Of a stretch of DNA of 64,000 bases, positions 5,543 through 62,997 are shown piece by piece. How positions within the stretch are numbered: the stretch's first letter is position 1; every line of letters starts with the position of its first letter. The stretch is taken from assembly GCF_000934545.1 (NCBI RefSeq), contig NZ_CP010554.1:2294001-2358000 (forward strand). Reading direction: 5' to 3'. The notes beneath the pieces were generated by a model that was given only the letters and a program-made list of their open reading frames with translations, had not been told where the DNA came from and searched no databases. The translations under genes were made by a program, and so were the position numbers. The stretch is from Rugosibacter aromaticivorans. Its GTDB lineage: Bacteria > Pseudomonadota > Gammaproteobacteria > Burkholderiales > Rhodocyclaceae.

Positions 5543-5568
5543 CCGCCGTATCACCAGCGCCGACTTTT
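5543..5568 (+). repeat. Dispersed repeat copy 1
   Basis: GCCGTATCACCAGCGCCGAC followed by TTTT. It lies in the 134-base gap between iorA and the upstream enoyl-CoA hydratase gene, next to an AT-rich stretch (5488-5520). It is one of about eleven copies in the window. Confidence 0.85.
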
Positions 5569-5577
5569 CATGTTTTA

Positions 5578-6366
5578 TCAGCGCCCTTTAAACACGGGCG
5601 GGCGCTTTTCAGCAAAAGCCGCCAGGCCTTCTTTTTGATCTTCCGTCGTAATCAAAAACGCCATCGACAGCGCTTCGATATCCATGAAAGCATCAAACGG
5701 CATACGTAAGGCGTCACGCAGGGCTTTTTTCGCCAGACCATGCGCCATCGTTGGCCCTGCAGCTAATTGATCTGCAATTTTATGCGCTTCGCCAGTGAGC
5801 TCACTGGCCGGCACCGTCCAGTTATACAAGCCTATATCTGTGGCTTCTTGCGCGGTCAAAGTTTTATTTAACAGCACAATTTCCTTGGCGCGCGTCATGC
5901 CTAGGCGATGCGCAAGAAAATAGAGCGCGCCAGAATCCGGCATCGCTCCGATCTTGCCAAAGGCGGGTACAAACGCCGCTTCTTCACAAGCCAAAACCAA
6001 ATCAGCCGCCATGACGAGGCTGATCCCCGCGCCTGCGGCAGGACCATTCAGCACGACTAACACCGGCTTATCAAGTGTCAAGATTGCGTGAATAAGCGGG
6101 CGCATTTCGATGTCTAAAAAATGCAGTACCTCTTGCGGCGAGTGGGATTTGAAAATGGATTTCAGATCACCCCCGGCACAAAAAACCGGGCCTTCCCCGG
6201 TGAGCGTCACAGCACGTACGGACACATCACGCGCAGCCTCAGCAAGGCCCGCGGACAACGCGCGAATGCAAGTTGCATCCAGCGCGTTGCGCACGTGGGG
6301 GCGCGTGATACAAAGCTCCATCACAGCGCCGCGACGGGAAACAGCGACCGTTTGCTCTTTACTCAT
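5578..6366 (-). CDS. Enoyl-CoA hydratase/isomerase family protein
   Basis: 262 residues, the usual length of a crotonase-fold enzyme. It shows the oxyanion-hole segment FCAGGDLKS and the second-loop sequence GPAAGAGISLVMAADLV followed by FGKIGAMPDSGALYFL, like PaaG/PaaF-type proteins. Crotonases hydrate, isomerise or cleave CoA thioesters; the exact reaction cannot be read from sequence. It lies 15 bases after a second crotonase gene and upstream of iorA, so it is probably part of the same transcript and works on CoA esters made in the pathway. Confidence 0.88.
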   Translation of the reverse strand: MSKEQTVAVSRRGAVMELCITRPHVRNALDATCIRALSAGLAEAARDVSVRAVTLTGEGPVFCAGGDLKSIFKSHSPQEVLHFLDIEMRPLIHAILTLDKPVLVVLNGPAAGAGISLVMAADLVLACEEAAFVPAFGKIGAMPDSGALYFLAHRLGMTRAKEIVLLNKTLTAQEATDIGLYNWTVPASELTGEAHKIADQLAAGPTMAHGLAKKALRDALRMPFDAFMDIEALSMAFLITTEDQKEGLAAFAEKRPPVFKGR

Positions 6367-6381
6367 TTATCAGCTTTCCAA

Positions 6382-7182: not shown

Positions 7183-7266
7183 TTCTCTCTCCAGAATGAA
7201 TAAAATTCTTTATATCTTTTTACAACATTTAGCCACAGCGTAGGGTGAAACTTTTGGCTGTGCCTT

Positions 7267-10966: not shown

Positions 10967-12404
10967 GACTCGCTCCTGGCGCTTGTATCGTTATCCACTT
11001 CCATTCGGTGCAGTGATCAATATCGGTTTGCGCCCCTTCACGGCCCATGCCGGAGTCCCCCACACCACCAAACGGCACGTGGGGTTCGTCATGCAGCGTG
11101 GGGGCGTTAACGTGCACCATACCGGCATGAATGCCCTGTGAAATGCGCATGGCTTCATCAAGATTTTGTGTAAAGACAGCGGCCGACAAGCCGTAACAGT
11201 TGTCGTTGGCAAGCGCTAACGCCGCATCAGCAGAGCCGACTTTATACACGGCGGTGACCGGGCCAAAGGTTTCTTCCTGGTAGCACACCATGCGCGAATC
11301 AACGCCGGTGAGTATGGTGGGCAAACAGCGATTGCCCACCCACTTGCCCCCTGTTTCAAGCGTGGCGCCATGGGCTACGGCATCGTCAATGTGATGGCGA
11401 ATGCGATCACGCTGGCGTTGCGAAATGATCGGCCCGAGCATGGTTTTTGGGCTGCGCAAATCGCCATAACCCACCCCGGCAGCCGCCGCTTTATAGCGAC
11501 TGAGAAACTCATCATAAATAGGCGCTTCCACCAAAATACGGCTGGAAGCCATGCACGCCTGGCCTTGAAACAGAAACATGCCAAACACGGCCGCATGAAC
11601 GGCCGCATCCAGATCAGCATCCTTGAGAATGATGAGCGGATTTTTACCACCCAGTTCAAGCAAGGCACGCTTCATGTGTTTGCCACACAATGCTGACAAA
11701 TGCCGGCCGACGCGGGTTGAGCCTGTGAAGTTCACACCCTTGACGCGTGGATGCGTCACCAGATCATCGCCAATTTCATGCCCAAAACCGGTTAGCACAT
11801 TGAATGATCCGGCCGGAAACCCCGCATCGCGGAATAATTCGGCAACCAGGATAGCCAGCGCTGGCGCTTCTTCCGATGCCAGCAAAACAACGGTATTACC
11901 CGTTGCGAGCGGCCCCGTGCACTGCTTCATCGCCTTGATCAGTGGCACATTGAATGGGGTGATGCAAGCAAACACCCCCAAAGGCTCGCGCACGCTCATG
12001 CTAAAACGGCCCGGTACATCGGAGGGAAGCGTTTGCCCAGTGATACGGCGGGGAATACCGGCCGCAGTCCGCAAATGCGCAATGGCGTATTTGATTTCGA
12101 AATGCGCTTTCAACAGCGGCGAACCAATCTCATCAATCAGCACATCGGCAAACGCATCCTTGCGCTGTTCGAGCAAATCGGCCGCTTTGCCAAGCCAGGT
12201 TTCACGCTGTCCCGGTGTGGTGTCGCGATAACTGGCAAACGCAGCGTGAGCCGCTTCTGCAGCCAATTGCACATCTTCCACAGCCGCCCTTGCCACTTCA
12301 GCGTAAGGACTATCATCCACCGGCGTGTGATCAACAAAGGTGGCGTTGGACTGGGCTGCGCGAAATTCACCACCAATCCAGAAATTAAGCTTTTTGAGTG
12401 CCAT
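10956..12404 (-). CDS. Aldehyde dehydrogenase, benzaldehyde/vanillin dehydrogenase-like
   Basis: 482 residues with the complete ALDH set: NAD-binding FTGSTRVG, general base Glu250 in LELGGKNP, nucleophile Cys284 in FQGQACM, and the late motif EETFGPVTAVY. The best sense from context is oxidation of the hydroxybenzaldehyde-type product of the upstream flavocytochrome to its carboxylate, which the overlapping UbiD gene would then use. It starts 14 bases after the cytochrome c stop. ALDH substrate range is broad, so the aldehyde is inferred from neighbours only. Confidence 0.9.
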   Translation of the reverse strand: MALKKLNFWIGGEFRAAQSNATFVDHTPVDDSPYAEVARAAVEDVQLAAEAAHAAFASYRDTTPGQRETWLGKAADLLEQRKDAFADVLIDEIGSPLLKAHFEIKYAIAHLRTAAGIPRRITGQTLPSDVPGRFSMSVREPLGVFACITPFNVPLIKAMKQCTGPLATGNTVVLLASEEAPALAILVAELFRDAGFPAGSFNVLTGFGHEIGDDLVTHPRVKGVNFTGSTRVGRHLSALCGKHMKRALLELGGKNPLIILKDADLDAAVHAAVFGMFLFQGQACMASSRILVEAPIYDEFLSRYKAAAAGVGYGDLRSPKTMLGPIISQRQRDRIRHHIDDAVAHGATLETGGKWVGNRCLPTILTGVDSRMVCYQEETFGPVTAVYKVGSADAALALANDNCYGLSAAVFTQNLDEAMRISQGIHAGMVHVNAPTLHDEPHVPFGGVGDSGMGREGAQTDIDHCTEWKWITIQAPGASHGH

Positions 12405-12418: not shown

Positions 12419-12853
12419 TTATTTTGTCTGCGCTGCAGGATGCGGGCCTGCTGACAAGTATGCCGCGAGCGCTTTTAATTCTTCTTCACTGACTTCCGTC
12501 ATCCGAAACGCGGGCATTAATCCACGCCCATTACGCACTAAAAAACGGACGTAATCAGGCGTTAAATTATCGCGGTCGGCGAGCGCTGCTTTTTCTTTGC
12601 CATACAAAAAGCCCAAAGCTTGAGTGCCAGGCGTGCCCAGCCCGCGTTCGTGGCATACGGTGCAGTAATGCTCATAAATGGCGGCGCCTTGCGCCAGCGT
12701 GGCGGGGCTTATAGCAGGCGTAGGCACTGCTGCATCAGCTGCAAACACGGTAGTCGCCGTATAGCCAGCGCCGACTATTCCGCATACTAATGCCGCGCGG
12801 ACTAAAGAACGTTTTCCAAAAACAGATTCAACCATTAAGCGCGCATTCATCAT
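12419..12853 (-). CDS. Periplasmic c-type cytochrome, electron acceptor of the flavoprotein
   Basis: 144 residues with one haem-binding motif CTVCH (residues 64-68) and a probable axial Met in GLMPAFRMTEVS. A hydrophobic segment (about residues 18-38, ending VFAADA) is a Sec signal peptide, so it acts in the periplasm. This is the size and arrangement of PchC, the cytochrome subunit of p-cresol methylhydroxylase. Its start overlaps the stop of the flavoprotein gene (ATGA). Oddly, residues 28-34 (VGAGYTA) are encoded by a copy of the dispersed repeat, so the repeat forms part of the signal peptide. Confidence 0.88.
   Translation of the reverse strand: MMNARLMVESVFGKRSLVRAALVCGIVGAGYTATTVFAADAAVPTPAISPATLAQGAAIYEHYCTVCHERGLGTPGTQALGFLYGKEKAALADRDNLTPDYVRFLVRNGRGLMPAFRMTEVSEEELKALAAYLSAGPHPAAQTK
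12754..12780 (+). repeat. Dispersed repeat copy 2, inside the cytochrome c signal peptide
   Basis: CGCCGTATAGCCAGCGCCGA followed by CTATTCC matches the family consensus at most positions and is read in frame by the cytochrome c gene on the other strand as VGAGYTAT. Confidence 0.65.
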
Positions 12854-19293: not shown

Positions 19294-20172
19294 ATGAAAA
19301 CTGCGCAAGGCATTCCGGTCTTGATGTATCACCATGTCAGCCCCAACCCAGGCCTTGTGACCGTCTCGCCCGAGACGTTTCACACGCAGATGGCCTGGCT
19401 CGCCCGGCACAATTACCGCAGCATAGGCGCCGATGATCTGGCGGCCTTTTTGACCGGTACGCCGTTACCTGAAAAATCCGTGATGATCACCTTTGATGAC
19501 GGTTATCTCGACAACTATCTTTACGCGCATCCGGTGTTGCAGGCCCTTGGGTTAAAGGCTGTGCTTTTTGTGACCACCGGCTGGCTGGGTCAGGGTACTC
19601 CGCGCGGAATAGTGCACAAAGACGTGCAAAAAGTCGGCGCTGGTGACACGGCGCACAGAGGGCAACGGATGCCGGCAGCATCGGCGCTCACCCCATCACA
19701 TCGCGTCTGCATGGAAAGAATCGCTGCGGGGCAAGCGGATGATGTCATGCTGCGCTGGAGCGAAGTGGTCGAAATGAACGCGGCAGGCAGCTTTGAATTT
19801 CATTCCCACACCCACACGCATCAACGCTGGGATCGGCTGGCAAGCGATCCGCAAGCGCGTCGAACAAAATTAGCTGAAGATTTAGCCGCGTCACGCGCGG
19901 CGCTAAAAACGCATCTGGGCAGCGTATCGCCGCATCTGTGTTGGCCGCAAGGCTACTTTGATGCCGACTACCAGGCTGTGGCACATAGCGCCGGATTCAC
20001 CCACCTATACACCGTGAATAAAGGAACCTGCACCGCAAAGACGCCGGCTTCGGCCATTCCCCGCGTGGTTGTCAAAGATCGTGCAGATGGCTGGTTTGGG
20101 CGACGTCTATGGCTTTACCGCCACCCTGCGCTTACCCGCGCTTATCTCGCTTTACGGGCGGGCGGCGGTTAA
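19294..20172 (+). CDS. Polysaccharide deacetylase (CE4, PgaB-like N-terminal domain)
   Basis: 292 residues with the CE4 metal-dependent deacetylase motifs: VLMYHHVSP at the N-terminus, TFDDGYLDN (catalytic Asp pair) and HSHTHTH (metal His). It starts three bases after the glycosyltransferase stop, completing a three-gene envelope operon. Between residues ~108 and 127 the protein contains a stretch (QKVGAGDTAH) encoded by a copy of the dispersed repeat inserted in frame; it lies in a loop between the two catalytic motifs, so activity could survive. Confidence 0.85.
   Translation: MKTAQGIPVLMYHHVSPNPGLVTVSPETFHTQMAWLARHNYRSIGADDLAAFLTGTPLPEKSVMITFDDGYLDNYLYAHPVLQALGLKAVLFVTTGWLGQGTPRGIVHKDVQKVGAGDTAHRGQRMPAASALTPSHRVCMERIAAGQADDVMLRWSEVVEMNAAGSFEFHSHTHTHQRWDRLASDPQARRTKLAEDLAASRAALKTHLGSVSPHLCWPQGYFDADYQAVAHSAGFTHLYTVNKGTCTAKTPASAIPRVVVKDRADGWFGRRLWLYRHPALTRAYLALRAGGG
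19628..19653 (-). repeat. Dispersed repeat copy 3, in frame inside the deacetylase gene
   Basis: Contains the 20-base core GTCGGCGCTGGTGACACGGC preceded by AAAA, the closest match to the family consensus. It adds VGAGDTA to the host protein without breaking the frame. Confidence 0.85.
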
Positions 20173-25313: not shown

Positions 25314-25340
25314 AAAAAGTCGGCGCTGGCAACACGGCGG
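25314..25340 (-). repeat. Dispersed repeat copy 4
   Basis: AAAAAGTC followed by GGCGCTGGCAACACGGC, located in the 101-base gap between the cupin and dioxygenase genes, just upstream of the cupin ribosome site. The 17-base core is identical to that of copy 5 at 33623-33642. Confidence 0.85.
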
Positions 25341-27333: not shown

Positions 27334-27447
27334 GATGATCTCCTCTCCTATGTTTTTATTTATCGCTACAAAAAACATCCGTTTCAGTTTCTCATACTAC
27401 ACCCACATGAAGCGTTGCCTCAACCACTACCACTGCCAGCGCCGCCT

Positions 27448-31612: not shown

Positions 31613-31907
31613 GCTCTTCTCCTGTTTTTGTGACGATTTTTTTGTGGCAAATCACGCTAGCAAATACAGTCGCTACAGACGACAACGAGCATCTGCTCAT
31701 GTTTAGTACGGCTTAACTATACACCGCAAAACCGCCGCATTAAATTCTGCCCGGCATGCATCACCGCACGGGCAATACAAACCCAACACAAACCGCATGG
31801 GAGGACGATTTCGCAATAAAATGCACCCCCGCGTGTTTTCTGTTGGGCGTCGATACGGCTTCTGCCGTGCCCACCTCCCGCGCCCACCCCTCTTTGGTAT
31901 CTGCCCT
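31613..31907. promoter_or_regulatory. Divergent intergenic region between thiolase and ABC-F genes
   Basis: No gene is evident. It should hold the promoters of both the second catabolic operon (minus) and the ABC-F operon (plus). A short inverted repeat GAGCA-TC-TGCTC lies near 31688. I could not assign -35/-10 boxes with confidence. Confidence 0.4.
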
Positions 31908-36392: not shown

Positions 36393-37369
36393 CACAGCCG
36401 ATCCAGCGGGCTCATCACCCCGCGCCCGCCTTTGTTCAGCACATGGGTGTAGATCATTGTTGTCGATACATCCGAATGGCCGAGCAATTCCTGCACTGTG
36501 CGGATGTCGTAACCACCTTCCAGCAGATGAGTGGCAAAGGAATGACGCAGGGTGTGCGGCGTGGCCGGCTTGGTCAGCCCCGCATCACGCACGGCCTGTC
36601 GCACAGCCCGCTGAATGGCCTGGTCTTGTATGTGATGCCGTCTTGTTTCACCGGAACGCGGATCAACCGATAACCTGGCCGAGGGGAATACATATTGCCA
36701 AGCCCACTCTCGCTCAGCCTGTGGATATTTTTTACTCAACGCATAAGGCAGATACACAGCACCATAGCCTTCAGCCAGGTCTTTTTCATGCAAATCCTTC
36801 ACCCGCTTCAAATGCAGCTTCAGAGGCTCAATCAGCATCCCGGGCAACATTGTCACCCTATCCTTGAACCCCTTTCCATCACGAATCAGAATCTCTTTAC
36901 GCGAAAAATCAACGTCTTTGACACGCAACCGTAACGCTTCCAAGATGCGCATCCCCGTGCCATACAGCAAGCTCACCACCAAATGCGGTGTGCCATCCAG
37001 ATGGGACAATATTTCCTGAACCTCCATCGGGGTCAACACCACTGGCAAGCGCTTTGGCGCCTTGGCACGCTCCACATCATCCAGCCACGGCAAATCAACA
37101 CCCAAAACCTCTTTATACAAAAACAGCAGCGCACTTTTTGCCTGGTTCTGCGTGCTGGGCGCAACCTTACCCTGTACCGCAAGATACGTTAAAAATTGTT
37201 CCACCTCCAAAGCCCCAAGGTCTTTGGGGTGCTTCTTGTCAAAATGCAGGATAAAGCGTTTAATCCAATCGACATAAGCTTGTTCTGTACGTATGCTGTA
37301 ATGCTTCAAGCGAATTTTGCCCCTCACAAGATCCAACAGTTTTGGCGGCTCAGAATTCGACGTCGTCAT
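36392..37369 (-). CDS. intI: Integron integrase
   Basis: 325 residues of a tyrosine recombinase. The N-terminal SAM-like core-binding domain ([15 protein letters not shown]) is followed by the catalytic domain with Arg in [30 protein letters not shown] (His-x-x-Arg), [10 protein letters not shown] and the nucleophile Tyr in MIYTHVLN. The IntI-specific extra patch before the third catalytic block ([19 protein letters not shown] then [12 protein letters not shown]) is present, which separates it from XerC/D. It is transcribed away from a cassette array to its right, the standard integron layout. Nothing indicates truncation, so it should be active. Confidence 0.95.
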
Positions 37370-37957: not shown

Positions 37958-37977
37958 TCGCCCTCCCGTGAGCCGCC

Positions 37978-38044
37978 GCCCAACCCGTCGTGCGAAGGGA
38001 CCTGCGCAAGAAGCCGCGCAGGCCCCTCCACTCTGTCGTTAGGC
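37978..38044 (+). other. attC site A (67 bp)
   Basis: GCCCAAC at the left and GTTAGGC at the right, with an inner imperfect palindrome (CCTGCGC...AAGCCGCGCAGG). Both outer boxes match the R''/R' consensus, and the inner palindrome recurs in sites B, C, D and H, as expected for a chromosomal integron with a resident attC family. Confidence 0.9.
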
Positions 38045-38047
38045 AAC

Positions 38048-38461
38048 ATGTTCATCACCGACGCAGAGGAACACCGCGCGTCTCTGGAAGCCGTCTTGCT
38101 TCGGCACGCCAGCGAACGCGTATCGCTTGAGATTGTCGAAAATGTTGCCAGTTGGGCCGTCGCGAATCACGTCACAGTCGAAGGCAACCCGCTTGCTTCG
38201 GCCATCCCTGCGAGAAATGGACTCAGTCGGTCAATCGTGCTGCAGCGAAAAATGGACGAGAACGATACAGCGGGAATTCTGGGACGCCTAGATTTCGGTG
38301 GGCACTCGCGCGAACGAAGCCTTCTTGTGAATCCCAAGCTGTTCCTTCGCCATACCGTCCTTCACGAACTCGCTCACCTTGAGAACAATTGGGGCCAGGC
38401 ATACGAGGATGAGTCCGACAGTTGGGCTTTTGAACGGCTGTCCGCTCAATGGAGGGGTTAG
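38048..38461 (+). CDS. Cassette protein with HExxH motif, possible ImmA/IrrE-like metallopeptidase
   Basis: 137 residues whose ATG lies four bases after the R' box of attC A, as is usual for cassette genes. The C-terminal part contains VLHELAHLENNWGQAYEDES followed by DSWAFERL; HELAH is a zincin-type HExxH and the acidic residues about 15 further on could supply the third ligand, an arrangement like ImmA/IrrE domains. Its stop codon TAG lies inside a GTTAGGC box. Identity as an active peptidase is an inference. Confidence 0.6.
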   Translation: MFITDAEEHRASLEAVLLRHASERVSLEIVENVASWAVANHVTVEGNPLASAIPARNGLSRSIVLQRKMDENDTAGILGRLDFGGHSRERSLLVNPKLFLRHTVLHELAHLENNWGQAYEDESDSWAFERLSAQWRG

Positions 38462-38464
38462 GCC
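38458..38464 (+). other. Lone attC R' box (GTTAGGC)
   Basis: The right-hand core box of an attC is present but I see no matching left box or inner palindrome in the preceding 100 bases, which are coding. Probably the remnant of a lost attC that fused cassettes 2 and 3. Confidence 0.4.
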
Positions 38465-38483
38465 GCCAAGTCAAACCGCCTCC

Positions 38484-39143
38484 ATGACCGCACACCTCAC
38501 AAAGATCGACGTCGCACGCAGACAGCTTTCGACGGCAGTTTGCTTGTTATTCGATGGTGGAGATGTTGTGTCAGTCTACTCATTGGCAGCAAATGCCTGG
38601 GAGGTAATCGACACGCTTTGCGTACGCGCAGGGGTAGACGGGATTTCTGGTCAGACGAAGGAACACCTTGCGCCAGGCAAGAGCTTAAAGTTCGACTACG
38701 TCAATTCGCCGTATCGAAACTTCTTCAAGCATGCTGATCGAGATCCAGATGCTGTGCTCGAGGAAATTCCAGACTCAGAGGTTGACTCGCTAATCTTCTT
38801 GGCCGTCGAGGATTACATGCGACTCATGAACAAGTCGCCAGTTGAATTTCAGGTATTTCAACTTTGGTATCTGGCGCTTCACGTTGAAAAGGTTGCAGAC
38901 GGCTCGCTCGGTAAGATCATTGACGCAGTCAATTCGACTTTCTCGAACATTCGAGAACTGCCGAGGGCAAGCCGCATCTCGTTCGCTCGCTCGGTTCTTG
39001 AAGGCGCCCTCAACGATCAGAGTTTGCTCGCGGACCCGAGAACGGAGGTTTCAATTTCGATGAGATGCTCAGGTCGTCACTACCTATCTCGTTCCGAGCT
39101 AGGACGCTGCACATCGCGTCTCGGGATGATCTCCTCAAAATGA
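38484..39143 (+). CDS. Hypothetical cassette protein, probably frameshifted near its 3' end
   Basis: 219 residues from the ATG at 38484 (an earlier in-frame ATG lies inside the previous gene). The first ~185 residues look like a genuine soluble alpha-helical protein (MTAHLTKIDVARRQLSTAV, then YRNFFKHADRDPDAVLEE); I recognise no family. After about position 39045 the translation becomes Arg/Ser-rich and unlike the rest, while another frame gives a natural-looking C-terminus ending at 39220. Confidence 0.55.
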   Translation: MTAHLTKIDVARRQLSTAVCLLFDGGDVVSVYSLAANAWEVIDTLCVRAGVDGISGQTKEHLAPGKSLKFDYVNSPYRNFFKHADRDPDAVLEEIPDSEVDSLIFLAVEDYMRLMNKSPVEFQVFQLWYLALHVEKVADGSLGKIIDAVNSTFSNIRELPRASRISFARSVLEGALNDQSLLADPRTEVSISMRCSGRHYLSRSELGRCTSRLGMISSK

Positions 39144-39220
39144 AAGAAGATGCCGTCTGTGAAGTAAGTCGCGTCCTTGCAAAGCACGAAAAGGATCTCG
39201 CTTGTTTGCGAAACGCATAA
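39046..39220 (+). pseudogene. Out-of-frame C-terminal segment of the preceding cassette gene or of a lost gene
   Basis: The frame reading GFNFDEMLRSS and FRARTLHIASRDDLLKMKED is open to a TAA at 39218-39220 just before attC B. The RTLHIASRDDLLKMK-type stretch resembles the end of nucleotidyltransferase-like (AbiEii/MNT-type) proteins. The frame has no good start of its own. Either a single-base shift near 39045 splits one gene, or two genes were fused. Confidence 0.4.
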
Positions 39221-39283
39221 CCCGGCAGTCAACACGGACGCTGCGCGATAAAGCCGCGCAGGTCGCTCACTTCTACGTTAGGC
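39215..39283 (+). other. attC site B (69 bp)
   Basis: GCATAAC on the left, GTTAGGC on the right, inner GCTGCGCGATAAAGCCGCGC. The left box overlaps the TAA of the preceding reading frame. Confidence 0.8.
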
Positions 39284-39341
39284 ATTACATTTTTCCTTAG
39301 TCACGCTTTACATTAATCACGCATGGCGTTATTATTTGTTT

Positions 39342-39623
39342 ATGTCCATCAAATCCTTCAAGTGCATCGAGACTGAGAGCCTATTTAAACGGCAACGCGT
39401 AAAACGATTTACGAACATTGAGTCTGTGGCACGACGAAAACTTGAGCAGCTTGAGTGGGCAGGTATTCTTGACGATCTTCGTGTCCCACCCGGTAATCGA
39501 TTAGAAGCATTGAAACATGATCGTGCCGGACAACACAGCATTCGCATTAACGACCAGTTTCGCGTGTGCTTTGTGTGGACGAGCGAGGGGCCAAAAGATG
39601 TCGAGATTGTTGATTACCATTAA
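39342..39623 (+). CDS. higB: HigB-type toxin (RelE fold)
   Basis: 93 residues, the usual HigB size, with the typical C-terminal blocks DLRVPPGNRLEALKHDRAGQ, SIRINDQFRVCFVWT and VEIVDYH. HigB proteins are ribosome-dependent mRNA interferases. The toxin gene precedes the antitoxin gene, as is normal for HigBA, and the frame is intact. Cassettes of this kind stabilise integron arrays. Start at 39342; a TTG two codons earlier is also possible. Confidence 0.92.
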   Translation: MSIKSFKCIETESLFKRQRVKRFTNIESVARRKLEQLEWAGILDDLRVPPGNRLEALKHDRAGQHSIRINDQFRVCFVWTSEGPKDVEIVDYH

Positions 39624-39636
39624 CGGAGTCTGAATC

Positions 39637-39963
39637 ATGAGCAAAACAAATAAGCTTCCGCCAGTTACCCCTGGCGAAATGTTGCTGGAAGAGTTCCTGA
39701 AACCGATGGGAATTTCCCAATATCGGCTAGCCAAGGAGATTGGTGTTCCCGCTCAGCGTATTGGTGAGATTGTCGCTGGTCGCCGTGCAATTACGGCTGA
39801 CACCGATTTGAGGTTGTGCCGTTTTTTTGGGCTATCCGAAGGGTGGTGGCTGCGCGGCCAAGCACGTTACGACACCGAGTGCGCTAAGGATGTTCTAGCG
39901 GCAACCCTAAACAAAATCAGGCCGTGGACGGAAGTTGTCGCCGATGTCGCTGCCCATGCCTAA
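39637..39963 (+). CDS. higA: HigA-type antitoxin (HTH, XRE/VapI family)
   Basis: 108 residues with an N-terminal helix-turn-helix (PPVTPGEMLLEEFLKPMGIS, QYRLAKEIGVPAQRIGEIV) of the VapI/HigA group and a short C-terminal tail. It neutralises HigB and represses the operon. It starts 13 bases after higB. Its stop codon TAA is part of the left box (GCCTAAC) of attC C. Confidence 0.93.
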   Translation: MSKTNKLPPVTPGEMLLEEFLKPMGISQYRLAKEIGVPAQRIGEIVAGRRAITADTDLRLCRFFGLSEGWWLRGQARYDTECAKDVLAATLNKIRPWTEVVADVAAHA

Positions 39964-40020
39964 CTCTACGCTCAAGCGGGACTGCGCAAAAGCGCGCAGC
40001 CCCTTAGCTCCACGTTGGGC
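39958..40020 (+). other. attC site C (63 bp)
   Basis: GCCTAAC and GTTGGGC boxes, with inner ACTGCGCAAAAGCGCGCAG and flanks CTCAAGCGGG/CCCCTTAGCT. The same flank recurs in the damaged site G. Confidence 0.88.
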
Positions 40021-40071
40021 ACCATTGCCCGGAATGAGCGACAATTAGACTTTTACCACTGGAGTCAAGAT

Positions 40072-40305
40072 ATGGAACTGACCGCGGTACTTACTCCCGC
40101 CGAAGAAGGCGGCTATGTTGCCCTGAATCCAGAGACAGGCACCACTACGCAAGGTGAAACTGTTGAAGAGGCTATCGCCAATCTGCAAGAGGCTACGGCG
40201 CTCTATCTGTCAGAGTTCCCCATACCTGCGCCAGGACATCCGCTGGTAACAACGTTCAGCGTTCCTGCGCATGCCAGCTCCCCCGCATTTCGGGAGCTGC
40301 GATAG
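40072..40305 (+). CDS. hicB: HicB-type antitoxin
   Basis: 77 residues of the HicB partial-RNase-H fold: LTAVLTPAEEGGYVALNPE, GETVEEAIANLQEATALYL and VTTFSVPAHA. GGAG lies seven bases before the ATG at 40072. The last seven residues (SSPAFRELR) go past the usual HicB end and overlap the hicA region. Antitoxin-first order is one of the two known for Hic systems. The antitoxin frame is intact whereas the toxin frame is not. Confidence 0.88.
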   Translation: MELTAVLTPAEEGGYVALNPETGTTTQGETVEEAIANLQEATALYLSEFPIPAPGHPLVTTFSVPAHASSPAFRELR

Positions 40306-40484
40306 TACGGGCGCTGGAGCGCCTTGGTTTCGAGAAGCTCCGCCAATCCGGAAGCCACGTCATCATGCGCCGTGACTCCAAAGGCTGTGTCGTTCCCTTG
40401 CACAGCGAAGTCAAAGTTGGCGCCCTGGCCGGTGTCTTGCGTCAGGCTGACATATCGCCAGACGAATTTATCGCGGCCTTGTAG
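40271..40484 (+). pseudogene. hicA: HicA-type toxin gene with a likely +1 frameshift
   Basis: The frame reading RISGAAIVRALERLGFEKLR, SGSHVIMRR, VVPLHSEVKVGALAGVLRQA and DISPDEFIAAL to the TAG at 40482 is a full HicA (YcfA-like) domain including the catalytic His of GSH. It has no in-frame ATG, GTG or TTG. The natural start ATGCCAGCT at 40271 is one base out of frame; removing one C from the C5 run at 40280-40284 would restore MPAPRISGAA. I read this as an inactivated toxin, unless a slippage event or sequencing error is involved. Confidence 0.75.
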
Positions 40485-40491
40485 CCGTGGT

Positions 40492-40722
40492 GCCCAACCC
40501 GTCGTTCGAGCGGACCTCGCGCATAAAGCCGCGCAGCCCCGCTGAGCTTGAACGTTGAGGCTGTAGAAAAGCCCCTTTCGGAAAAATCGGGATCATCATG
40601 AACAAAAACCAACCTCTCAGAACGCGCTGTGTTGGCCGATCTTCATCCGAGGAAGGATCAAGTGACCCCCGAAATTTGGGTTGCGCAACCCCTTACCTAG
40701 TTTTTCTACAGCGTCGTTGGGC
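40492..40722 (+). other. attC site D, interrupted by a MITE-like insertion
   Basis: Left box GCCCAAC at 40492-40498 and inner CCTCGCGCATAAAGCCGCGC. The right box is split by the insertion 40558-40714; removing it and one copy of CGTTG rebuilds GTTGGGC and a 69-bp attC. Confidence 0.85.
40558..40714. mobile_element. 157-bp MITE-like element with terminal inverted repeats and 5-bp target duplication
   Basis: Ends are AGGCTGTAGAAAAGC and, on the other strand, ACGCTGTAGAAAAAC (13 of 15 positions match). CGTTG flanks it on both sides (40553-40557 and 40715-40719). It is too short for a transposase; a small frame starting MNKNQPLRTRC is probably a remnant. The parent insertion sequence is not identified. 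Confidence 0.8.
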
Positions 40723-40802
40723 GGAACAAGCAGTAAATGCGTCAGGTCACGCAGTGGTACACTGATATTTCAAAATAGTTCTCAAACAAAAGGAAATTCG
40801 CG

Positions 40803-41486
40803 ATGAAGATTCTCATTGTTCTTACGTCTCATGACCAACTCGGCGACACCGGAAATAAAACTGGTTTCTGGCTGGAAGAATTCGCCGCTCCCTATTACGT
40901 ATTGAGGGATGCCGGTGCAGCTATCACGCTGGCATCGCCGAAGGGCGGCCAGCCGCCGCTCGACCCGAAGAGCGATCTTCCCGAGTTCCAGACCGAAACA
41001 ACGGGGCGCTTCCACGCCGATACCGCCGCACAAACCCAGCTTGCGAACACCAGGAAGCTGGCCGATGTGTCGGCCGACGATTTCGACGGGGTCTTCTATC
41101 CCGGCGGTCACGGCCCGCTGTGGGACATGCCCGACAATGCGACATCGATCGCGCTCATCGAAGCTTTTGTTAAGGCCGGCAAACCGGTTGGCGCGGTCTG
41201 TCACGCCCCGGCCGTGCTTGTCAACGTACGTGGTAAGGACGGGGAGTTCCTGATCAAAGGCAAGCGCGTGACCGGCTTTGCCAATTCGGAAGAAGATGCC
41301 GTCGGGCTCACAACGGTTGTGCCCTTCCTGCTGGAAGACAAGCTCAAGGAGAGGGGTGGCAACTACAGCAAGGGCGCCGACTGGTCTCCCTATGTGCTGG
41401 TGGACGGCAAGCTGGTGACGGGTCAGAATCCGGCTTCTTCCGGGCCCGCAGCGGAAGCGCTGCTGAAGCTGCTGCGCTCCGTCTGA
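40803..41486 (+). CDS. DJ-1/PfpI (type 1 glutamine amidotransferase-like) family protein
   Basis: 227 residues, of the Hsp31/glyoxalase III-like branch. Nucleophile Cys133 is in the elbow AVCHAPA with His134 next to it, and the acidic partner is Glu25 or Glu26 in GFWLEEFAAP; FYPGGHGPLWD is also typical. Such proteins convert methylglyoxal to lactate without glutathione or repair glycated groups. AAAGGAA precedes the ATG. It lies in its own integron cassette between attC D and attC E in the expected orientation. Codon use and GC look like the chromosome. Confidence 0.88.
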   Translation: MKILIVLTSHDQLGDTGNKTGFWLEEFAAPYYVLRDAGAAITLASPKGGQPPLDPKSDLPEFQTETTGRFHADTAAQTQLANTRKLADVSADDFDGVFYPGGHGPLWDMPDNATSIALIEAFVKAGKPVGAVCHAPAVLVNVRGKDGEFLIKGKRVTGFANSEEDAVGLTTVVPFLLEDKLKERGGNYSKGADWSPYVLVDGKLVTGQNPASSGPAAEALLKLLRSV

Positions 41487-41604
41487 GCTGATGTCAGTGG
41501 ACCGGCCGGCAGCTGCCGGCAACACAGCGCTGGCTGGCTGATGCCTGGTACCGGGTCAAATGGAAGTTTGATTCGAAGAGGGGCTTCTCGATGTGTAGCT
41601 CGTG

Positions 41605-41677
41605 GCCCAACCAGTCATTCCAGCGGATCGGCAAAAGGCTGCGCCTTTTGCCGATCCGCTGAATTCACACGTTGGAC
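41605..41677 (+). other. attC site E (73 bp) with long perfect palindrome
   Basis: GCCCAAC and GTTGGAC boxes; inside, AGCGGATCGGCAAAAGGC and its complement flank a 3-base loop. It is a different attC type (VCR/XCR-like length and loop) from sites A-D, so this cassette probably came from another integron. Confidence 0.88.
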
Positions 41678-41680
41678 ATC

Positions 41681-41935
41681 TTAGTAATGAAAGCGCAATT
41701 GGGCAATCAACAGTGCATTGTCTTCGACGCGATATACCATGCGATGCTCGTCTGTTATGCGACGTGACCAGAACCCTGATAGCGCGTGCTTTAAAGGTTC
41801 AGGCTTTCCAACTCCGGTGAAGGGCTCGCGTTGCGTCTCGCGTATCAACTTGTTAATCCGTTCAACCATACGTTTGTCTCGCTTTTGCCAATAGAGGTAG
41901 TCTTCCCATGCCTCATCTGCAAAGACCAGCTTCAT
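41681..41935 (-). CDS. yoeB: YoeB-type toxin
   Basis: 84 residues, the exact length of YoeB, with MKLVFADEAWEDYLYWQ, GKPEPLKHALSGFWSRRI, EHRMVYRVED and the C-terminal LRFHY typical of this RelE-like ribosome-dependent endonuclease. The reading frame is complete, so it should be active. It is on the minus strand of its cassette and ends four bases from attC E; toxin-antitoxin cassettes often have their own promoter and may sit in either orientation. Confidence 0.93.
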   Translation of the reverse strand: MKLVFADEAWEDYLYWQKRDKRMVERINKLIRETQREPFTGVGKPEPLKHALSGFWSRRITDEHRMVYRVEDNALLIAQLRFHY

Positions 41936-42183
41936 TTAACCAATTTCCGCGCAACGCCTTTGCCGGCGTTTAGTTGTCCGACCGCCGTCAAGAGGCGCTT
42001 GGCGTTGGCGGGTGTGCGCAAGAGGTAGGCGGTTTCTTCAAGCGCCTTGTAGTCTTCGAGCGAGAGCATCACCACCGCCTGTTCTCCGTTGCGGGTGATA
42101 ATTAAAGCTTCGTGATCGTTGCAAACCCGATCCATAGCGCTAGCGAGGTTTGCGCGGATAGTAGTGTAGGTAATTGCATCCAT
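41932..42183 (-). CDS. yefM: YefM-type antitoxin (Phd/YefM family)
   Basis: 83 residues with the N-terminal Phd/YefM DNA-binding fold (TYTTIRANLASAMDRVCNDH, EALIITRNGEQAVVMLSLED) and an Ala/Leu-rich toxin-binding tail. Its stop overlaps the yoeB start, so the pair is coupled, antitoxin first. It represses its own promoter, expected right of 42183; TGTACATATTACTGTACA there (42198-42215) is a near-palindrome that fits such an operator. Confidence 0.93.
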   Translation of the reverse strand: MDAITYTTIRANLASAMDRVCNDHEALIITRNGEQAVVMLSLEDYKALEETAYLLRTPANAKRLLTAVGQLNAGKGVARKLVK

Positions 42184-42197
42184 GATAGGCCTCCAAA

Positions 42198-42215
42198 TAT
42201 GTACATATTACTGTA
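42198..42215 (-). promoter_or_regulatory. Palindrome upstream of yefM, likely YefM operator
   Basis: TGTACAGTAATATGTACA on the minus strand: TGTACA arms around an AT-rich centre, 15-32 bases upstream of the yefM start. TGTACA hexamers are the known core of YefM-YoeB operators. Confidence 0.7.
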
Positions 42216-42254
42216 CATCAACAACTACCGATTGTCCATCATCCACGCAATGAC

Positions 42255-42327
42255 GCCCAACCCATCATTCCAGCGGACACCGCTCGCTAACGCTCACGGC
42301 TGCGCCTCACTGGCGAGAGCGAGCCAT
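42255..42327 (+). other. attC site F, 3' end missing
   Basis: Starts GCCCAACCCATCATTCCAGC and has the long VCR-like stem (CTCGCTAACGCTCA... GGCGAGAGCGAG), but the expected right end with GTTRRRY is not found; the sequence changes after GAGCGAGCC. Confidence 0.7.
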
Positions 42328-42538
42328 CCCTGGAGCCGGCTGGCGTAGGCCTACCCTCGCTACGGGGGTGTCGCTCAACTCAAAATTAGCCACAAGGAGG
42401 AATTGATGCGCTACCAAACGATTCGATCACTTCTCGTCCTCTCAGCACGCCGCGCAGAACCTCCTTGATTCGACCGAGTTCATGAAGCTTCCATACCGCC
42501 ATATGGCTTTTTATATTGCTAAGCGCTAGTCTTCGCTT
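42328..42538 (+). other. Gene-poor stretch between attC F and the brnT remnant
   Basis: No convincing gene. A ribosome-site-like AAGGAGG precedes a 20-codon frame at 42405 that stops at once. Another frame (QHAAQNLLDSTEFMKLPYRH, then MAFYIAKR) is open to a TAG near 42528 and looks protein-like but has no proper start, so a decayed cassette gene is possible. Confidence 0.4.
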
Positions 42539-42828
42539 ATGGCAAACACTCGCTTTGATTGGGATACCGACAAGGACGCTGAAAGCCAGCGAAAACACGG
42601 CGTTTCGTTTAACCGCGCCCAGTATGCATTCGCTGATCCGCAGCGCGTGATTGCCAAGGACATCACCCACAGTCAATCCGAAGAGCGGTTCTATTGTTTC
42701 GGGGAGGTTGATGGTGGGTGCTTACGGTGCGATTCACATATCGCGCCTCTGTTGTTCGAATCATCGGCGCAGGCTATTGGCGCAAAGGAAAGGTAATTTA
42801 TGAGCGCGAAAATCAAATACACGGATGA
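42539..42828 (+). pseudogene. brnT: BrnT-type toxin gene with a frameshift
   Basis: The first frame reads FDWDTDKDAESQRKHGVSFN, then FADPQRVIAKDITHSQSEER and FYCFGEVDGG, a typical BrnT N-terminal part. It then goes astray. The frame one base off continues VLTVRFTYRASVVRIIGAGY, then WRKGKVIYERENQ, to a TGA at 42826, exactly the expected BrnT C-terminus with its conserved Arg residues. Loss of one G in the GGG run near 42714-42716 explains it. The 3' end overlaps brnA as in intact brnTA operons. Confidence 0.8.
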
Positions 42829-43075
42829 ACCACTAGGCAAGACTCAAGTGATTACCGACTTTCTCCCCTCTCCGACCGAGTTGGCATTTCGCGAGGAAGG
42901 TGTGAAGGTCACTCTGGCTCTGAGCAAAAAAAGTATCGAGTTTTTCAAGTCCGAAGCCTCTAAGCATCACACCCAGTACCAGCGCATGATCCGTCGACTT
43001 CTTGACGCTTACGTTGACACCCAATCCCCAACTCTGCGCTCAAGCGGGACGCGCCAAAAGCGGCGCGCCCCTTAG
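42800..43075 (+). CDS. brnA: BrnA-type antitoxin
   Basis: 91 residues. The central part VKVTLALSKKSIEFFKSEAS and YQRMIRRLLDAYVD is the ribbon-helix-helix domain of BrnA antitoxins, which bind BrnT and repress the operon. The last ~18 residues (from TQSPTLRSSG) are encoded by the damaged attC G, so the protein has an unusual tail made from recombination-site sequence. The antitoxin frame is intact although the toxin is broken. Confidence 0.87.
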   Translation: MSAKIKYTDEPLGKTQVITDFLPSPTELAFREEGVKVTLALSKKSIEFFKSEASKHHTQYQRMIRRLLDAYVDTQSPTLRSSGTRQKRRAP

Positions 43076-43085
43076 CTCCGCGCCT
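43026..43085 (+). other. attC site G, degenerate
   Basis: Inner part CTCAAGCGGGACGCGCCAAA...GGCGCGCCCCTTAGCTCC is close to attC C, but the right box is replaced by GCCTCTTGAC and the left box (CCCCAAC) is off-consensus. It overlaps the 3' end of brnA. Confidence 0.7.
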
Positions 43086-43150
43086 CTTGACCGTGTGCCC
43101 TTTCACCATCCATTATCATGAGTCTTCGGGCTTCGCATCGATAGTGCTTT

Positions 43151-43175
43151 CGCCGTCTCGCCAGCGCCGACTTTC
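43151..43175 (+). repeat. Dispersed repeat copy 7
   Basis: CGCCGTCTCGCCAGCGCCGA followed by CTTT, in the gap between attC G and the GIY-YIG cassette gene. Its presence inside the array means it moved in after the cassettes or came with one. Confidence 0.85.
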
Positions 43176-43202
43176 CGTGGTAACTCAACGCACTGCGGAT
43201 GA

Positions 43203-43505
<303 letters not shown>

Positions 43506-43565
43506 TCTGCCTCTTGTAGGCATGGTTTGCACAAAGATGCAAGGCGTTCTTGTGTCCATGTCGAG

Positions 43566-43633
43566 GTCTAATCCATCAATCCACCGGACACTGCGCGAAA
43601 AGCCGCGCAGGCGGATGAATTCAAACGTCGGGC
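43566..43633 (+). other. attC site H, both boxes mutated
   Basis: GTCTAAT (for GTCTAAC) on the left and GTCGGGC (for GTTGGGC) on the right; the inner part ACTGCGCGAAAAGCCGCGCAGG is intact. Probably an old, inactive site and the right end of the array. Confidence 0.78.
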
Positions 43634-44095
43634 ACCCATGACGGGCCAGTTCTGGCATTGACTTAGGTTCGCACTATGGCTACCCAATCTGATATGTTTC
43701 TTGCGCTGACGGATGGCCTCACTGCCCTGCTGTTTTTTGCGCGCATTCAAGATCGAGGAATTCAGCGGCTGTCGGGCGAATTATCGGTTTGATTTGCCGT
43801 ATCACCGCACCGACTTTTTTTTATATCTCCTCATTAGCCGCCATCTTGTTGATTGATTTGCGTAACGGGCACAGCATACTGCACATACATACCAGCCAAC
43901 CCGCACGTTTTACTTCCCATTCACTGTGCGCTTGAAACATCTCAGAGCACCGCAGCGCGTAAAAAATGCGTTATATTTGAGGCAACCAAATCGATGTTAC
44001 CCCGTGGAAATCTTGACCACGACAATGGCACTCTGCGCTTTTTAGCCGGCATCGTTTTGCGACCCAAAAACAAATAAAGCACGGAGGCTCTCACC
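43634..44095. other. Intergenic region between the integron and ovoA, with dispersed repeat copy 8
   Basis: The repeat GCCGTATCACCGCACCGACT plus T-run lies at 43796-43821. A 38-codon frame (43677-43793, MATQSDMFLALTDGLTALLF) precedes it and is of doubtful reality. The rest shows no gene; a GGAGG ribosome site just before 44096 serves ovoA. Confidence 0.55.
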
Positions 44096-50538: not shown

Positions 50539-50563
50539 TGCCGTATTACCAGCACCGACTTTT
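50539..50563 (+). repeat. Dispersed repeat copy 10, with degenerate neighbours
   Basis: GCCGTATTACCAGCACCGAC plus TTTT. The preceding 60 bases (50488-50538) hold two or three degenerate partial copies (GCCGTGTTGACGCGG, GCGGTGCTGCCGCG, GATGTTGCCAC), so a small cluster lies between the oxidoreductase gene and the tRNA genes. Confidence 0.75.
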
Positions 50564-50619: not shown

Positions 50620-50696
50620 TGGCCCGCCCGACAGGACTCGAACCTGTTACCCCCGGCTTAGAAGGCCGGTGCTCTATCCAGATGAGCTACGGGCGG
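50620..50696 (-). tRNA. tRNA-Arg (anticodon UCU)
   Basis: 77 bases including the encoded CCA. Acceptor CCGCCCG pairs with CGGGCGG; D-arm TAGCTCATCTGGATAGAGCA; anticodon stem CCGGC with loop CTTCTAA; T-arm CAGGTTCGAGTCCTG. It reads AGA codons. It lies downstream of tRNA-Pro in the same transcript. Confidence 0.95.
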
Positions 50697-60350: not shown

Positions 60351-60385
60351 CTCCCGAGAACGGTGCCAACTAAAAGAAGAACGAA

Positions 60386-60414: not shown

Positions 60415-61456
60415 AATCAATTCGATCGCTTGCCTCATCGCCCGACAAGAAACTCAGGTCGTCAAAGCCTTCCTCACTGCGTGAGGATCGTGTAAGCCCG
60501 GATTTTTGTTCGGGTGGCAAGAGTTTCAACAAGGCTTCCACCTCACCAGGCTCCAAGTCGCGGGACTGCCCTCGTTTCAGGCGGGGCGGCAGCTGAACCG
60601 GGCCATACCGCACACGCATCAGGCGGCTCACGGTCAAGTCGACGGCCTCAAACATACGCCTCACCTCGCGATTACGCCCTTCCGATAGGGCCACCCGATA
60701 CCAGCGGTTAGCACCTTCACCACCGGACTCCACAATCAAATTAAAGCGCGCTAACCCGTCTTCGATCTGAACTCCCTGGCGCAGACGCTCCAGCACCTCT
60801 GGCGTTGCCTCACCCAGAACGCGAACGGCATACTCACGTTCGATTTGGTATTTGGGATGCATCATCCGCTGTGCCAAGCCGCCGTCGTTGGTAAATAGCA
60901 GCAATCCGCAGGAATTAAAATCCAGCCGTCCGATGGAAATCCATCGCCCATTTCTTAAGCGAGGCAGCTTAGTGAAGACACTCGGCCGCCCCTGAGGGTC
61001 ATCTTTGGAAACAATTTCACCTTCCGGCTTGTGGTACATCACCACCCGTGGCAAGCGGTGAGAAAACTTAAGCTGGACCAACTTGCCATTGAGCCGGATT
61101 TTGTCTTCAGGACCAACCCGCTGTCCAATATGCGCAGGCTGGCCGTTGACGTTAACGCGCCCCGCGCTAATCCACTCCTCAATCTCGCGACGCGAACCAT
61201 GGCCTGCATCTGCCAATGCTTTTTGCAATTTTGGCGGGTCACTAAGCACAGCGGAAGCAGCCTTATTGCCTCTCCCAGTTTGAATTTTCGGGGCGGGCTG
61301 TCGCGCTCCTGCGTTGTCATTACGTGCCTCGGTCAATGCTCGGGAGCCCCCTTGCGCAGCACGAAAAGGGGTGGCCTTGCGCGGAGCAGCCGGCTTACGG
61401 GGCAAGCTACTACGCTTGGCCCTTGGTGATGCGGCGGAAGTGCCTGGTTTTTTCAT
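60401..61456 (-). CDS. rluB: Ribosomal large-subunit pseudouridine synthase RluB-type
   Basis: 351 residues from the ATG at 61456; frames further upstream overlap scpB and are not family-like. A basic, low-complexity N-terminal tail (~85 residues) leads into an S4 domain (LQKALADAGHGSRREIEEWI) and the RsuA-type catalytic domain with the Asp in SIGRLDFNSCGLLLFTNDGG and the late GRNREVRRMFEAV. RluB modifies 23S rRNA helix 89; RluE/F or RsuA relatives are alternatives but the length and scpB link favour RluB. Confidence 0.88.
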   Translation of the reverse strand: MKKPGTSAASPRAKRSSLPRKPAAPRKATPFRAAQGGSRALTEARNDNAGARQPAPKIQTGRGNKAASAVLSDPPKLQKALADAGHGSRREIEEWISAGRVNVNGQPAHIGQRVGPEDKIRLNGKLVQLKFSHRLPRVVMYHKPEGEIVSKDDPQGRPSVFTKLPRLRNGRWISIGRLDFNSCGLLLFTNDGGLAQRMMHPKYQIEREYAVRVLGEATPEVLERLRQGVQIEDGLARFNLIVESGGEGANRWYRVALSEGRNREVRRMFEAVDLTVSRLMRVRYGPVQLPPRLKRGQSRDLEPGEVEALLKLLPPEQKSGLTRSSRSEEGFDDLSFLSGDEASDRIDFAEK

Positions 61457-61484
61457 GGTGCCCTGCGGGCGAACCTCTGTTTCA

Positions 61485-62138
61485 TCATTCTGTCTGTAAC
61501 GCGCGCGCGCTGCGGATTGCCGGACCTGCATTGTCTGCGCGCATCGCTTCGCTCACTGACGCAACAAAATCTGCAGTAATCGCCGGCTGATCAGTCTCAG
61601 TATTCATGATTCGTTCAATTTCGCTTAACGGCGGCAACTCAGTCAGGCTACGCAAAGCCAAGTCATCAAGAAATATTTTTGTGGTGGCGTAAAGCGCTGG
61701 CCTGCCTGGCGCATCGCGATGGCCAACCACATCAATCCAGCCGCGTGATTCAAGGGTCTTAAGTATATTGGGCGACACCGCCACACCACGAATATCTTCA
61801 ATATCACCCCGCGTTACTGGCTGGCGATACGCAATAATCGACAGCGTCTCCATCACGGCACGTGAATACTTTGGTGCCTTTTCATTTTTCAGTCGATCAA
61901 CGTAGACTTGATATTCCGGGCGTGTTTGAAAACGCCAGCCAGAAGCCAAGCGTACCAGCTCAACACCGCGACCTGACCAGTCACGTCGCAAATCGTCAAG
62001 CAATATCTGCCAGGTGTCGTCGTCAAACGCCTCATCAAAGAGCTTTTTCAGCTCAGACAACGGCAAAGGTTCAGCCGCTACTAATAATGCGGTTTCAAGG
62101 ATGCGTTTGTAATCATCCGGCTTATAAAGTAACTGCAT
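61485..62138 (-). CDS. scpB: Segregation and condensation protein B
   Basis: 217 residues with paired winged-helix domains: [20 protein letters not shown] first, then [40 protein letters not shown] and [20 protein letters not shown]. Forms the kleisin complex with ScpA and SMC or MksB-type ATPases. The start overlaps the scpA end by 17 bases, so they are coupled. Confidence 0.96.
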
Positions 62139-62997
62139 CAGGCAATCTCACATAAATGGGCGCCAGTGCTTCACTTTGCGTAATCTCCACCATCGCTTCG
62201 CGGGCGAGCTCGAGCATGGCAAGAAAGCTGACGACCAACCCTGGCGCGCCGAGCGTTAGATCGAACAGTTGCTCGAATAACATGTGGCCGCCACCCTGCA
62301 AGCGACGCAAAATAAGGCTCATGTGCTCACGCACAGATAACTCCTCGCGATGAATCTTGTGATGCTGGTGTATTTTCACTTGCTTCATGAGCGAAAGCCA
62401 GGCTACCTGCAGGTCATGCAGGCTCACTTCCGGCTGACGCTTGACAACCTTATCCGCAATCCAAACCGTAACCCACTCAAAATCTCGCCCGGCCTGGGGT
62501 AATTCTTCCAGCTTGGCGGCAGCGGCTTTCATCCGTTCATATTCGACCAGACGACGCACCAGCTCGGCGCGCGGATCTTCAGCTTCGCCTTCATCGACAC
62601 GCGGGATGCGGGGTAACAACATACGCGACTTAATCTCAATCAGCATCGCTGCCATGAGCAGATATTCGGCCGCCAACTCGAGGTTGTGTTTGCGCATGGC
62701 TTCGACATAGGCCAGATACTGCACCGTCAGCGGCGCCATCGGAATATCCAGCACATTGATATTTGCGCGGCGTATCAGATACAACAATAAATCCAGCGGG
62801 CCTTCGAAAGATTCAAGAATGATCTCCAGCGCATCCGGCGGGATGTAAAGATCACGCGGCATCTCGGACATCACTTCGCCATAGACTTTGGGCAGATGTG
62901 GCGGGAGCAACACATCAATAAAAGTCTTGAGTCCGTTACTGGACGGCGCTGGTGATACGGCACCCACGGTTACTAACGCATTATCCGAAGGCTGCAT
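62122..62997 (-). CDS. scpA: Segregation and condensation protein A (kleisin)
   Basis: 291 residues from the ATG at 62997, which overlaps the trpS stop (TGATG). The kleisin body starts near residue 50 with [20 protein letters not shown] and continues through [20 protein letters not shown] and [15 protein letters not shown]. The first ~43 residues are an extension, part of which (VGAVSPAPS) is encoded by a copy of the dispersed repeat; an internal ATG at 62871 would give a more usual protein. Start therefore uncertain. Confidence 0.92.
62939..62963 (-). repeat. Dispersed repeat copy 11, in the scpA N-terminal extension
   Basis: GACGGCGCTGGTGATACGGC, read on the minus strand as VSPAPS. It separates the trpS-overlapping start from the conserved ScpA body. 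Confidence 0.72.

Follow-up and report, generated by a model that had tools for sequence, protein, structure and literature searches.

What is the short word that recurs across a 64-kb window of the Rugosibacter aromaticivorans chromosome (contig NZ_CP010554.1, positions 2,294,001 to 2,358,000; "the window" below means this whole stretch) and enters reading frames without breaking them? A NusA search likewise gave two Rugosibacter records, at 96% identity, as the nearest, and the genus is placed by the NCBI taxonomy in the Sterolibacteriaceae (Betaproteobacteria). We found that the repeat is a word of 25 bp, AAAAGTCGGCGCTGGYRANACGGCG, that stops abruptly on both sides, as defined by a logo built from 464 kb of the Rugosibacter genome. 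By analogy with known systems we predict, with a probability of roughly 0.7, that it is the DNA uptake sequence (DUS), a tag by which naturally transformable cells recognise kindred DNA, of a clade of Sterolibacteriaceae-type Betaproteobacteria, which would be the third lineage to possess one.

A 25-bp word repeated across the genome

The repeat family is certainly genome-wide. The 464 kb hold 73 copies of the unit at ≤4 mismatches, against none for the reversed control at that level, and the logo displays neither flank conservation nor target duplication outside the 25-bp word. The entire genome of 2.93 Mb carries 372 copies at ≤2 mismatches (188 on the plus and 184 on the minus strand; reversed control 0), and all nine Rugosibacter genomes, this one included, have 273-435 copies each, with the reversed control at 0 in every one. 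These counts, which the initial annotation of the window had proposed as a check, bear out its claim of a dispersed family that lies in both orientations; its statement that frames stay unbroken is supported too. The repeat word also supplies the most enriched 11-mer in 864 kb of sampled sequence (88 seen vs 1.0 expected under a third-order model); its logo in the R. aromaticivorans genome reads AAAAGTCGGCGCTGGtGAnACGGCG and holds about 35 bits per site, for sites chosen by score. Frames remain open through the copies because five of the word's six frames are stop-free; the sixth (TGG TGA) accounts for 2 of the 53 sense copies.

The placement sample of 864 kb comprises the window and 40 stretches of 20 kb each (29% of the genome), with open reading frames (ORFs) called by a simple codon-usage caller written for this analysis and covering 87.5% of the sample. 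It contains 136 copies at ≤4 mismatches, distributed as 53 sense and 45 antisense copies in ORFs, 36 intergenic copies and 2 at edges. Copies are under-represented in coding DNA (98/136 vs the 87.5% ORF coverage), and those between genes (36 of the 134 classified vs 12.5% non-ORF DNA) reach about twice the expectation (p 9e-6). They also avoid one another: only one of 99 gaps is shorter than 500 bp vs 9.6 ± 2.7 in simulations, and 6 of 99 are shorter than 1000 bp vs 18.5 ± 3.5, with none of 2000 simulations as low. Four of the 40 stretches are free of the motif.

Origin of the copies and lineage dialects

Among the 98 coding copies, 37 have a homologue covering the site in the other genomes fetched. 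At least one homologue aligns without a gap inside the motif in 30 of these 37 proteins, a class in which some alignments are poor and some homologues share the motif, and in which the clearest cases weigh most; in the other 7 all homologues are gapped there. The ABC-F gene of the window has GTAAAAATCGGCTATAAAAATACAGCACCG where a congener, genome G001, has GTAAAAGTCGGCTATGGCGCGACGGCGCCG, of equal length and near the consensus. At one homologous place in GcvT, R. aromaticivorans displays GGAAAGTCGGCGCTGGCAACACGGCGAG, Sulfurisoma (locus L068) GGAAAGTCGGCGCTGGCGGCACGGCAAG and locus L077 GGAAAGTCAGTCCTGGCGGCACGGCGCC, and most other listed loci have different codons there at equal length. The IlvD sites read GAAAAGTCGGCGCTGGCAACACGGCG in R. 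aromaticivorans, GAAAGGTCGGTGCTGGCGACACGGCG in G001 and GAAAAGTCAGTCCTGGTGGCACGGCG in G018, again with no length change. GcvT (R. aromaticivorans, L068, L077) and IlvD (R. aromaticivorans, L172, L231) are the two genes in which dialects were seen at orthologous sites. Near ScpA, the window and seven other loci, picked for having a match, share the position of the word, with flanks that vary in sequence and length; the place gave no match in two further carriers of the word (L061 and L062), whose DNA should reach there. Alignments to G001 over eight motif sites of R. aromaticivorans have the site shared in seven (some at 3-4 mismatches) and a misaligned border in one, and ten alignments over G001 copies give a counterpart in R. 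aromaticivorans for six and an eroded counterpart for one more. To judge from these alignments, the genome is mutating into the repeat word in place, by point substitution and not by insertion.

A degenerate pattern run over 249 genomes of the family gave at least 100 matches in 38 genomes from eight genera (the carriers), vs 0-3 matches per genome for controls. The logos reveal dialects in which the ends of the word are conserved and the middles are lineage-specific: G001 has the R. aromaticivorans logo with c for t, G018 has AAAAGTCAGTCcC..CagcACGGCG and G027 has AAAgTCGGCGCTGGCGg.ACGGCAc. In G018, a de novo ranking of 11-mers puts that genome's own dialect word first (18 vs 0.01); the G031 logo did not converge and we make no dialect claim for it.

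The outgroup and tree sample consists of 38 of 80 NusA loci. Fifteen of these 38 genomes have ≥100 matches and belong to Rugosibacter, Sulfuritalea, Sulfurisoma and relatives; Zoogloea, Thauera, Azospira, Azonexus, Dechloromonas, Nitrosospira and Thiobacillus have 0-1 matches each, and a Sterolibacterium record has 4. In a midpoint-rooted NusA tree of 39 genomes, all 16 carriers (window included) fall in one 24-row group with support 81/84, and the carrier state needs 4 changes vs 12.6 with shuffled labels, the starred branches forcing 2 changes. This distribution fits, without proving, one old gain of the repeat system with later losses. Two further genomes have five matches in one region (G130:C1:1461266-1502266 and G175:C1:1813200-2005953) and genome totals of 7 and 9, as though each had received a segment from a carrier; in such cases the motif may trace recent transfer.

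Copies and neighbouring elements in the window

At ≤3 mismatches, the 17-base core of the word occurs at 11 places in the window vs 0.30 expected, the maximum of 100 shuffles being 2. Copies were then scored over the full motif, AAAGTCGGCGCTGGNNNNACGGC, which has 19 fixed positions; its reversed form sets the control level in the window, with five matches having 5 mismatches and two having 4. The initial annotation had listed about eleven copies. Seven of them are strong, with 0-1 mismatch (whole-motif positions 5545, 12756, 19630, 25316, 36364, 43152 and 50540), and two are damaged (62939 and 43796), but 33623 and 48295 have the right half only and, with 5 mismatches on the whole motif, drop to control level. 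The same fate befalls 33708, offered as a weaker copy (right half only, 5 mismatches), and at 27434, the other weaker one, there is no match at ≤6 mismatches. An exact 17-base match between the fourth and fifth listed copies holds for the core, but the fifth (33620) is without the AAAGTC half and is not counted. The list was also incomplete, having passed over the copy at 11221 and core places at 15954 and 45417, and AAAAAGTC, given there as usually preceding the core, is no separate unit but belongs to the repeat itself according to the logo. All four of its in-frame cases (cytochrome c, polysaccharide deacetylase, the major facilitator superfamily (MFS) transporter and ScpA) were recovered.

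Table 1. Copies of the 25-bp word and associated features in the window (window coordinates; mismatches on the whole motif).
Feature	Coordinates	Strand	Mismatches	Context
Copy	5544..5568	-	0	Outside called genes
Weak copy	11220..11244	-	3	Aldehyde dehydrogenase gene (10956-12404); three homologues gapless
Copy	12755..12779	-	1	In frame near cytochrome c N-terminus (IVGAGYTA)
Copy	19629..19653	+	0	In frame in polysaccharide deacetylase (KVGAGDTA)
Copy	25315..25339	+	0	Outside called genes; overlaps a 139-aa ORF that has no Pfam hit
Degenerate site	32874..32896	+	6	ABC-F gene (31797-33878)
Copy	36363..36387	-	0	N-terminus of MFS transporter ORF (35094-36395); directly after the stop of the tyrosine-integrase gene
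Tyrosine-integrase gene	36392..37369			Phage_integrase and SAM-like domain; integron-type by look
attC-like repeats	~37970..43620			GCCCAACCCGTCGTTCGAGCGGACC... families, after the integrase gene
Copy	43151..43175	-	0	Outside called genes, between attC-like repeats
Damaged copy	43796..43818	-		2-bp deletion in middle, read from sequence
Copy	50539..50563	-	1	Intergenic, between the dihydrolipoyl dehydrogenase 3' end (49045-50460, +) and tRNA-Arg (50620-50696, -)
Split copy	62920..62961	+		AAAAGTC at 62920-62926, rest at 62945-62961; antisense, ScpA N-terminal region

The 18 extra bases that split the ScpA copy are in frame, encode six residues and are absent from loci L059 and L060, in which the copy is unsplit at the same place; L063, L064, L066, L067 and L068 have a diverged form there. 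The stretch from 36392 to ~43620 is probably a chromosomal integron, as recognised by eye and not with an attC model, and the copies at 36364 and 43152 stand at its two sides. The integrase side of the 36364 region is apparently absent in congeners, where the alignment is unusable. Elsewhere, locus L055 (G000:C1:2480001-2500000) has a CRISPR-like array of 30 copies of a unit with GGGGGGCGAGGATTGAAAC at a spacing of 71-74 bp.

The word is also found in viral contigs. In several of these (L279, L286, L306 and others of L279-L398), it lies near the 3' end of a gene that, from its motif, we take to be methylase-like (DAKVGAG.TAVQ); 14 viral copies have CGGTGCAGGGCG next in common; and one contig (L307:883-2238) bears five exact copies, the first four 316 bp apart, in a tandemly repeated unit.

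A probable DNA uptake signal and the rival explanations

One alternative is that the word is the binding site of a chromosomal protein acting in nucleoid organisation, segregation, recombination or repair, with a specificity that drifted between genera. We consider this unlikely, though selection for binding would also be expected to yield both the mutual avoidance of copies and dialect shifts at fixed sites, and the viral copies would be in keeping with a host factor of which phages also make use. Against it, the copies do not favour either replication strand (71 vs 60, p 0.38, with replichores inferred from GC skew and 5 copies in near-zero-skew stretches left out), nor do they gather around origin or terminus in the 41 sampled stretches, as judged by eye without a formal test. 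Moreover, the ~35 bits per site far exceed the ~14 bits that, by our own arithmetic, would be needed to mark ~460 places, and coding placement on both strands would be costly for an ordinary site. The same strand counts rule out a polar motif of the Chi or KOPS type. Chi and KOPS are polar relative to replication and over-represented genome-wide; the word shares the latter property but is without strand bias and about three times longer.

It is also conceivable, though very improbable, that the word began as a signal linked to phages or integrons, serving for example in packaging or in the recombination of cassettes, and spread from there into host chromosomes. At least 120 viral-contig stretches contain exact copies, some of which are followed by the same sequence (one dialect pattern and one decoy gave 0 each in viral contigs), and two window copies lie beside the tyrosine-integrase gene and among the attC-like repeats. 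Host chromosomes, however, have copies by the hundred, scattered across their core genes. Beyond one exact copy each, the 120 viral stretches contain 0.70 copies per 10 kb vs 1.4 in R. aromaticivorans (119 at ≤3 mismatches in 864 kb) and 2.6 in G001 (105 in 400 kb), densities obtained under slightly different mismatch rules. An integron link of the viral copies was dropped after the search for adjoining attC-like sequence, which a first expression found beside 0 of 141 copies and a second beside 1 of 141.

The initial annotation had regarded the word as mobile, of the repetitive extragenic palindromic (REP) type or palindrome-like, and a short element that inserts in frame (a REP, a miniature inverted-repeat transposable element or a unit mobilised by a REP-associated tyrosine transposase, RAYT) is a reading to which we leave next to no room. 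REP/RAYT elements are short palindromic or imperfect-hairpin repeats that flank a RAYT gene. The word is likewise short, dispersed in hundreds of copies and present on both strands; the genome has two Y1-transposase matches, of which the one of 97 aa is accompanied by a single copy in its 3.2-kb locus; and in the 7 proteins mentioned above every homologue has a gap within the motif. But the word is no palindrome: four example units fold little better than shuffles (z -0.57 to -1.59), and the copies have neither a shared flank nor a target duplication. Nor did the proposed RAYT link hold, as the 254-aa Y1_Tnp ORF has no copy within ~1.5 kb. The comparison of orthologues, suggested earlier as a way to define an insert, gave gapless homologues for 30 of 37 proteins, an in-place intermediate in ABC-F and lineage versions at the same conserved coding sites, and the copies avoid each other. 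On orthologue comparison, folding and transposase neighbourhood together, we reject this reading. A regulatory element (a terminator or transcription factor site) is scarcely credible either: the twofold intergenic enrichment and the setting of the 32 classified among the 36 intergenic copies (convergent 9, divergent 2, tandem 21) speak for it, but ORFs contain 98 of the 136 copies, in sense as well as antisense, there is no stem-loop, and Rfam found two tRNAs and no other RNA element in the window.

We return to the prediction that the word is a DUS. ComEC is present in all 37 same-family genomes searched, R. aromaticivorans included, and the R. aromaticivorans genome also has DprA and ten N-methylated-pilin matches, one belonging to the ComP_DUS family (PF16732) and another being GspH/FimT-like. 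Besides these genes, the case for a DUS draws on the abundance of one word on both strands, its twofold excess between genes, the spacing of copies away from each other, their lack of polarity to replication, their rise by substitution, the dialects at orthologous sites and the confinement to one clade. We posit that a putative DNA-binding component at the surface of the type IV pilus or competence apparatus would prefer duplex DNA with AAAAGTC, a lineage-specific middle and ACGGCG. Fragments bearing the word would be taken up and recombined more often, and alleles mutating towards it would spread by molecular drive, up to one every few kb and only where protein or regulatory constraint permits. 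If the receptor's specificity drifts, all sites would follow, giving rise to dialects; if the system is lost, the copies would erode. Viral DNA with the word could use the host's uptake route. We lean towards the broader view that sequence-specific DNA self-recognition arose here, in environmental Betaproteobacteria, separately from the two known families, with a 25-bp tag, dialects in at least eight genera, a putative receptor, repeated losses and viral copies.

With regard to the pilins themselves, the FimT-like minor pilin of G000 is 82-87% identical to those of G001, G004 and G006, and the best matches in G002, G003 and G007 have 32-45% identity over part of the length, which suggests that the pilin cluster was swapped within Rugosibacter. 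A sequence search of the PDB with two pilins returned general pilins only. The strongest ComP_DUS-family match among 61 genomes searched belongs to a non-carrier, G023, whose loci L261-L270 display the repeated words TTGAGAAGGGATTA and GTTGGAATCATGCCC, possibly a CRISPR array.

Several observations weigh against the DUS prediction. The ComP_DUS-family pilin is found in 53 of the 61 genomes, an orphan pilin in 49, the FimT-like pilin in 57 and ComEC in 56. Gene presence does not separate the carriers because all four occur in non-carriers too; by gene presence none of them stands out as a receptor candidate, and no carrier-specific receptor emerged. Some congeners of carriers have few matches or none (G288 0, G223 4, G266 5, G200 6, G283 35); 94 kb from G288 and 113 kb from G200 yielded no more than one clear copy of the canonical or G018 type. 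Nor does the number of copies per 20 kb vary significantly less than it would by chance (dispersion 0.79, P 0.19). Of the four motif-free stretches, one belongs to the ordinary chromosome (transketolase, AsmA), and the nature of two is unclear. The fourth, L052, is conjugative (TrwC relaxase, CagE/TrbE/VirB family) and in its lack of copies speaks for the prediction; the exact copies of the viral contigs noted above speak against it, and newly acquired DNA gives a mixed picture. At 25 bp, the word is longer than known DUS and uptake signal sequences (USS), the DUS being 10-12 bp long, and its density of ~1 per 6 kb is lower than the ~1900 per 2.2-2.3 Mb in Neisseriaceae. Closely spaced inverted pairs are nearly absent (1 of 99 gaps <60 bp), whereas such pairs are frequent for DUS in the part of the DUS study drawn on here (PMC3630211). 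In DUS these pairs go together with terminators.

No earlier description of the motif was seen by title in the open-access literature, a scope outside which most subscription papers fall; there, AAAGTCGGCGCTGG returned no paper and AAAAGTCGGCG only papers unrelated by title, and no name for the family was found, in agreement with the initial annotation. According to the sections of PMC7811141 used here, strong preference for uptake sequences is known from two families, mainly mucosal, so that arguments on why the trait evolves rest on two cases. A third, with dialects and apparent losses, in carriers that to judge by their record titles come from groundwater, lakes and fens, would put the need for a mucosal host to the test; it would also open the hunt for a new receptor and offer a sequence marker for following genes exchanged among environmental bacteria. 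The carriers include a named strain, Sulfurisoma sediminicola BSN1, and uptake is therefore directly testable.

Uptake preference for short motifs is described, in those same sections, for species of the Neisseriaceae and Pasteurellaceae, with known uptake sequences originating by point mutation and being rare both in coding sequence and in DNA of recent acquisition (PMC7811141). As for the Neisseriaceae DUS, whose dialects follow phylogeny in the corresponding part of PMC3630211, it differs from the word in taxonomic family and in its wealth of inverted pairs. The likenesses are over-representation, presence on both strands and partly in genes, phylogeny-following dialects with conserved positions, and type IV pilin and competence genes in the genome, ComEC occurring here also in non-carriers. 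The Pasteurellaceae USS, as portrayed in the portion of PMC7811141 consulted, is of another sequence and taxon and has a mean spacing of ~1 kb vs ~6 kb here; like the word, it has an A-rich side, evolves by point mutation and is under-represented in coding sequence.

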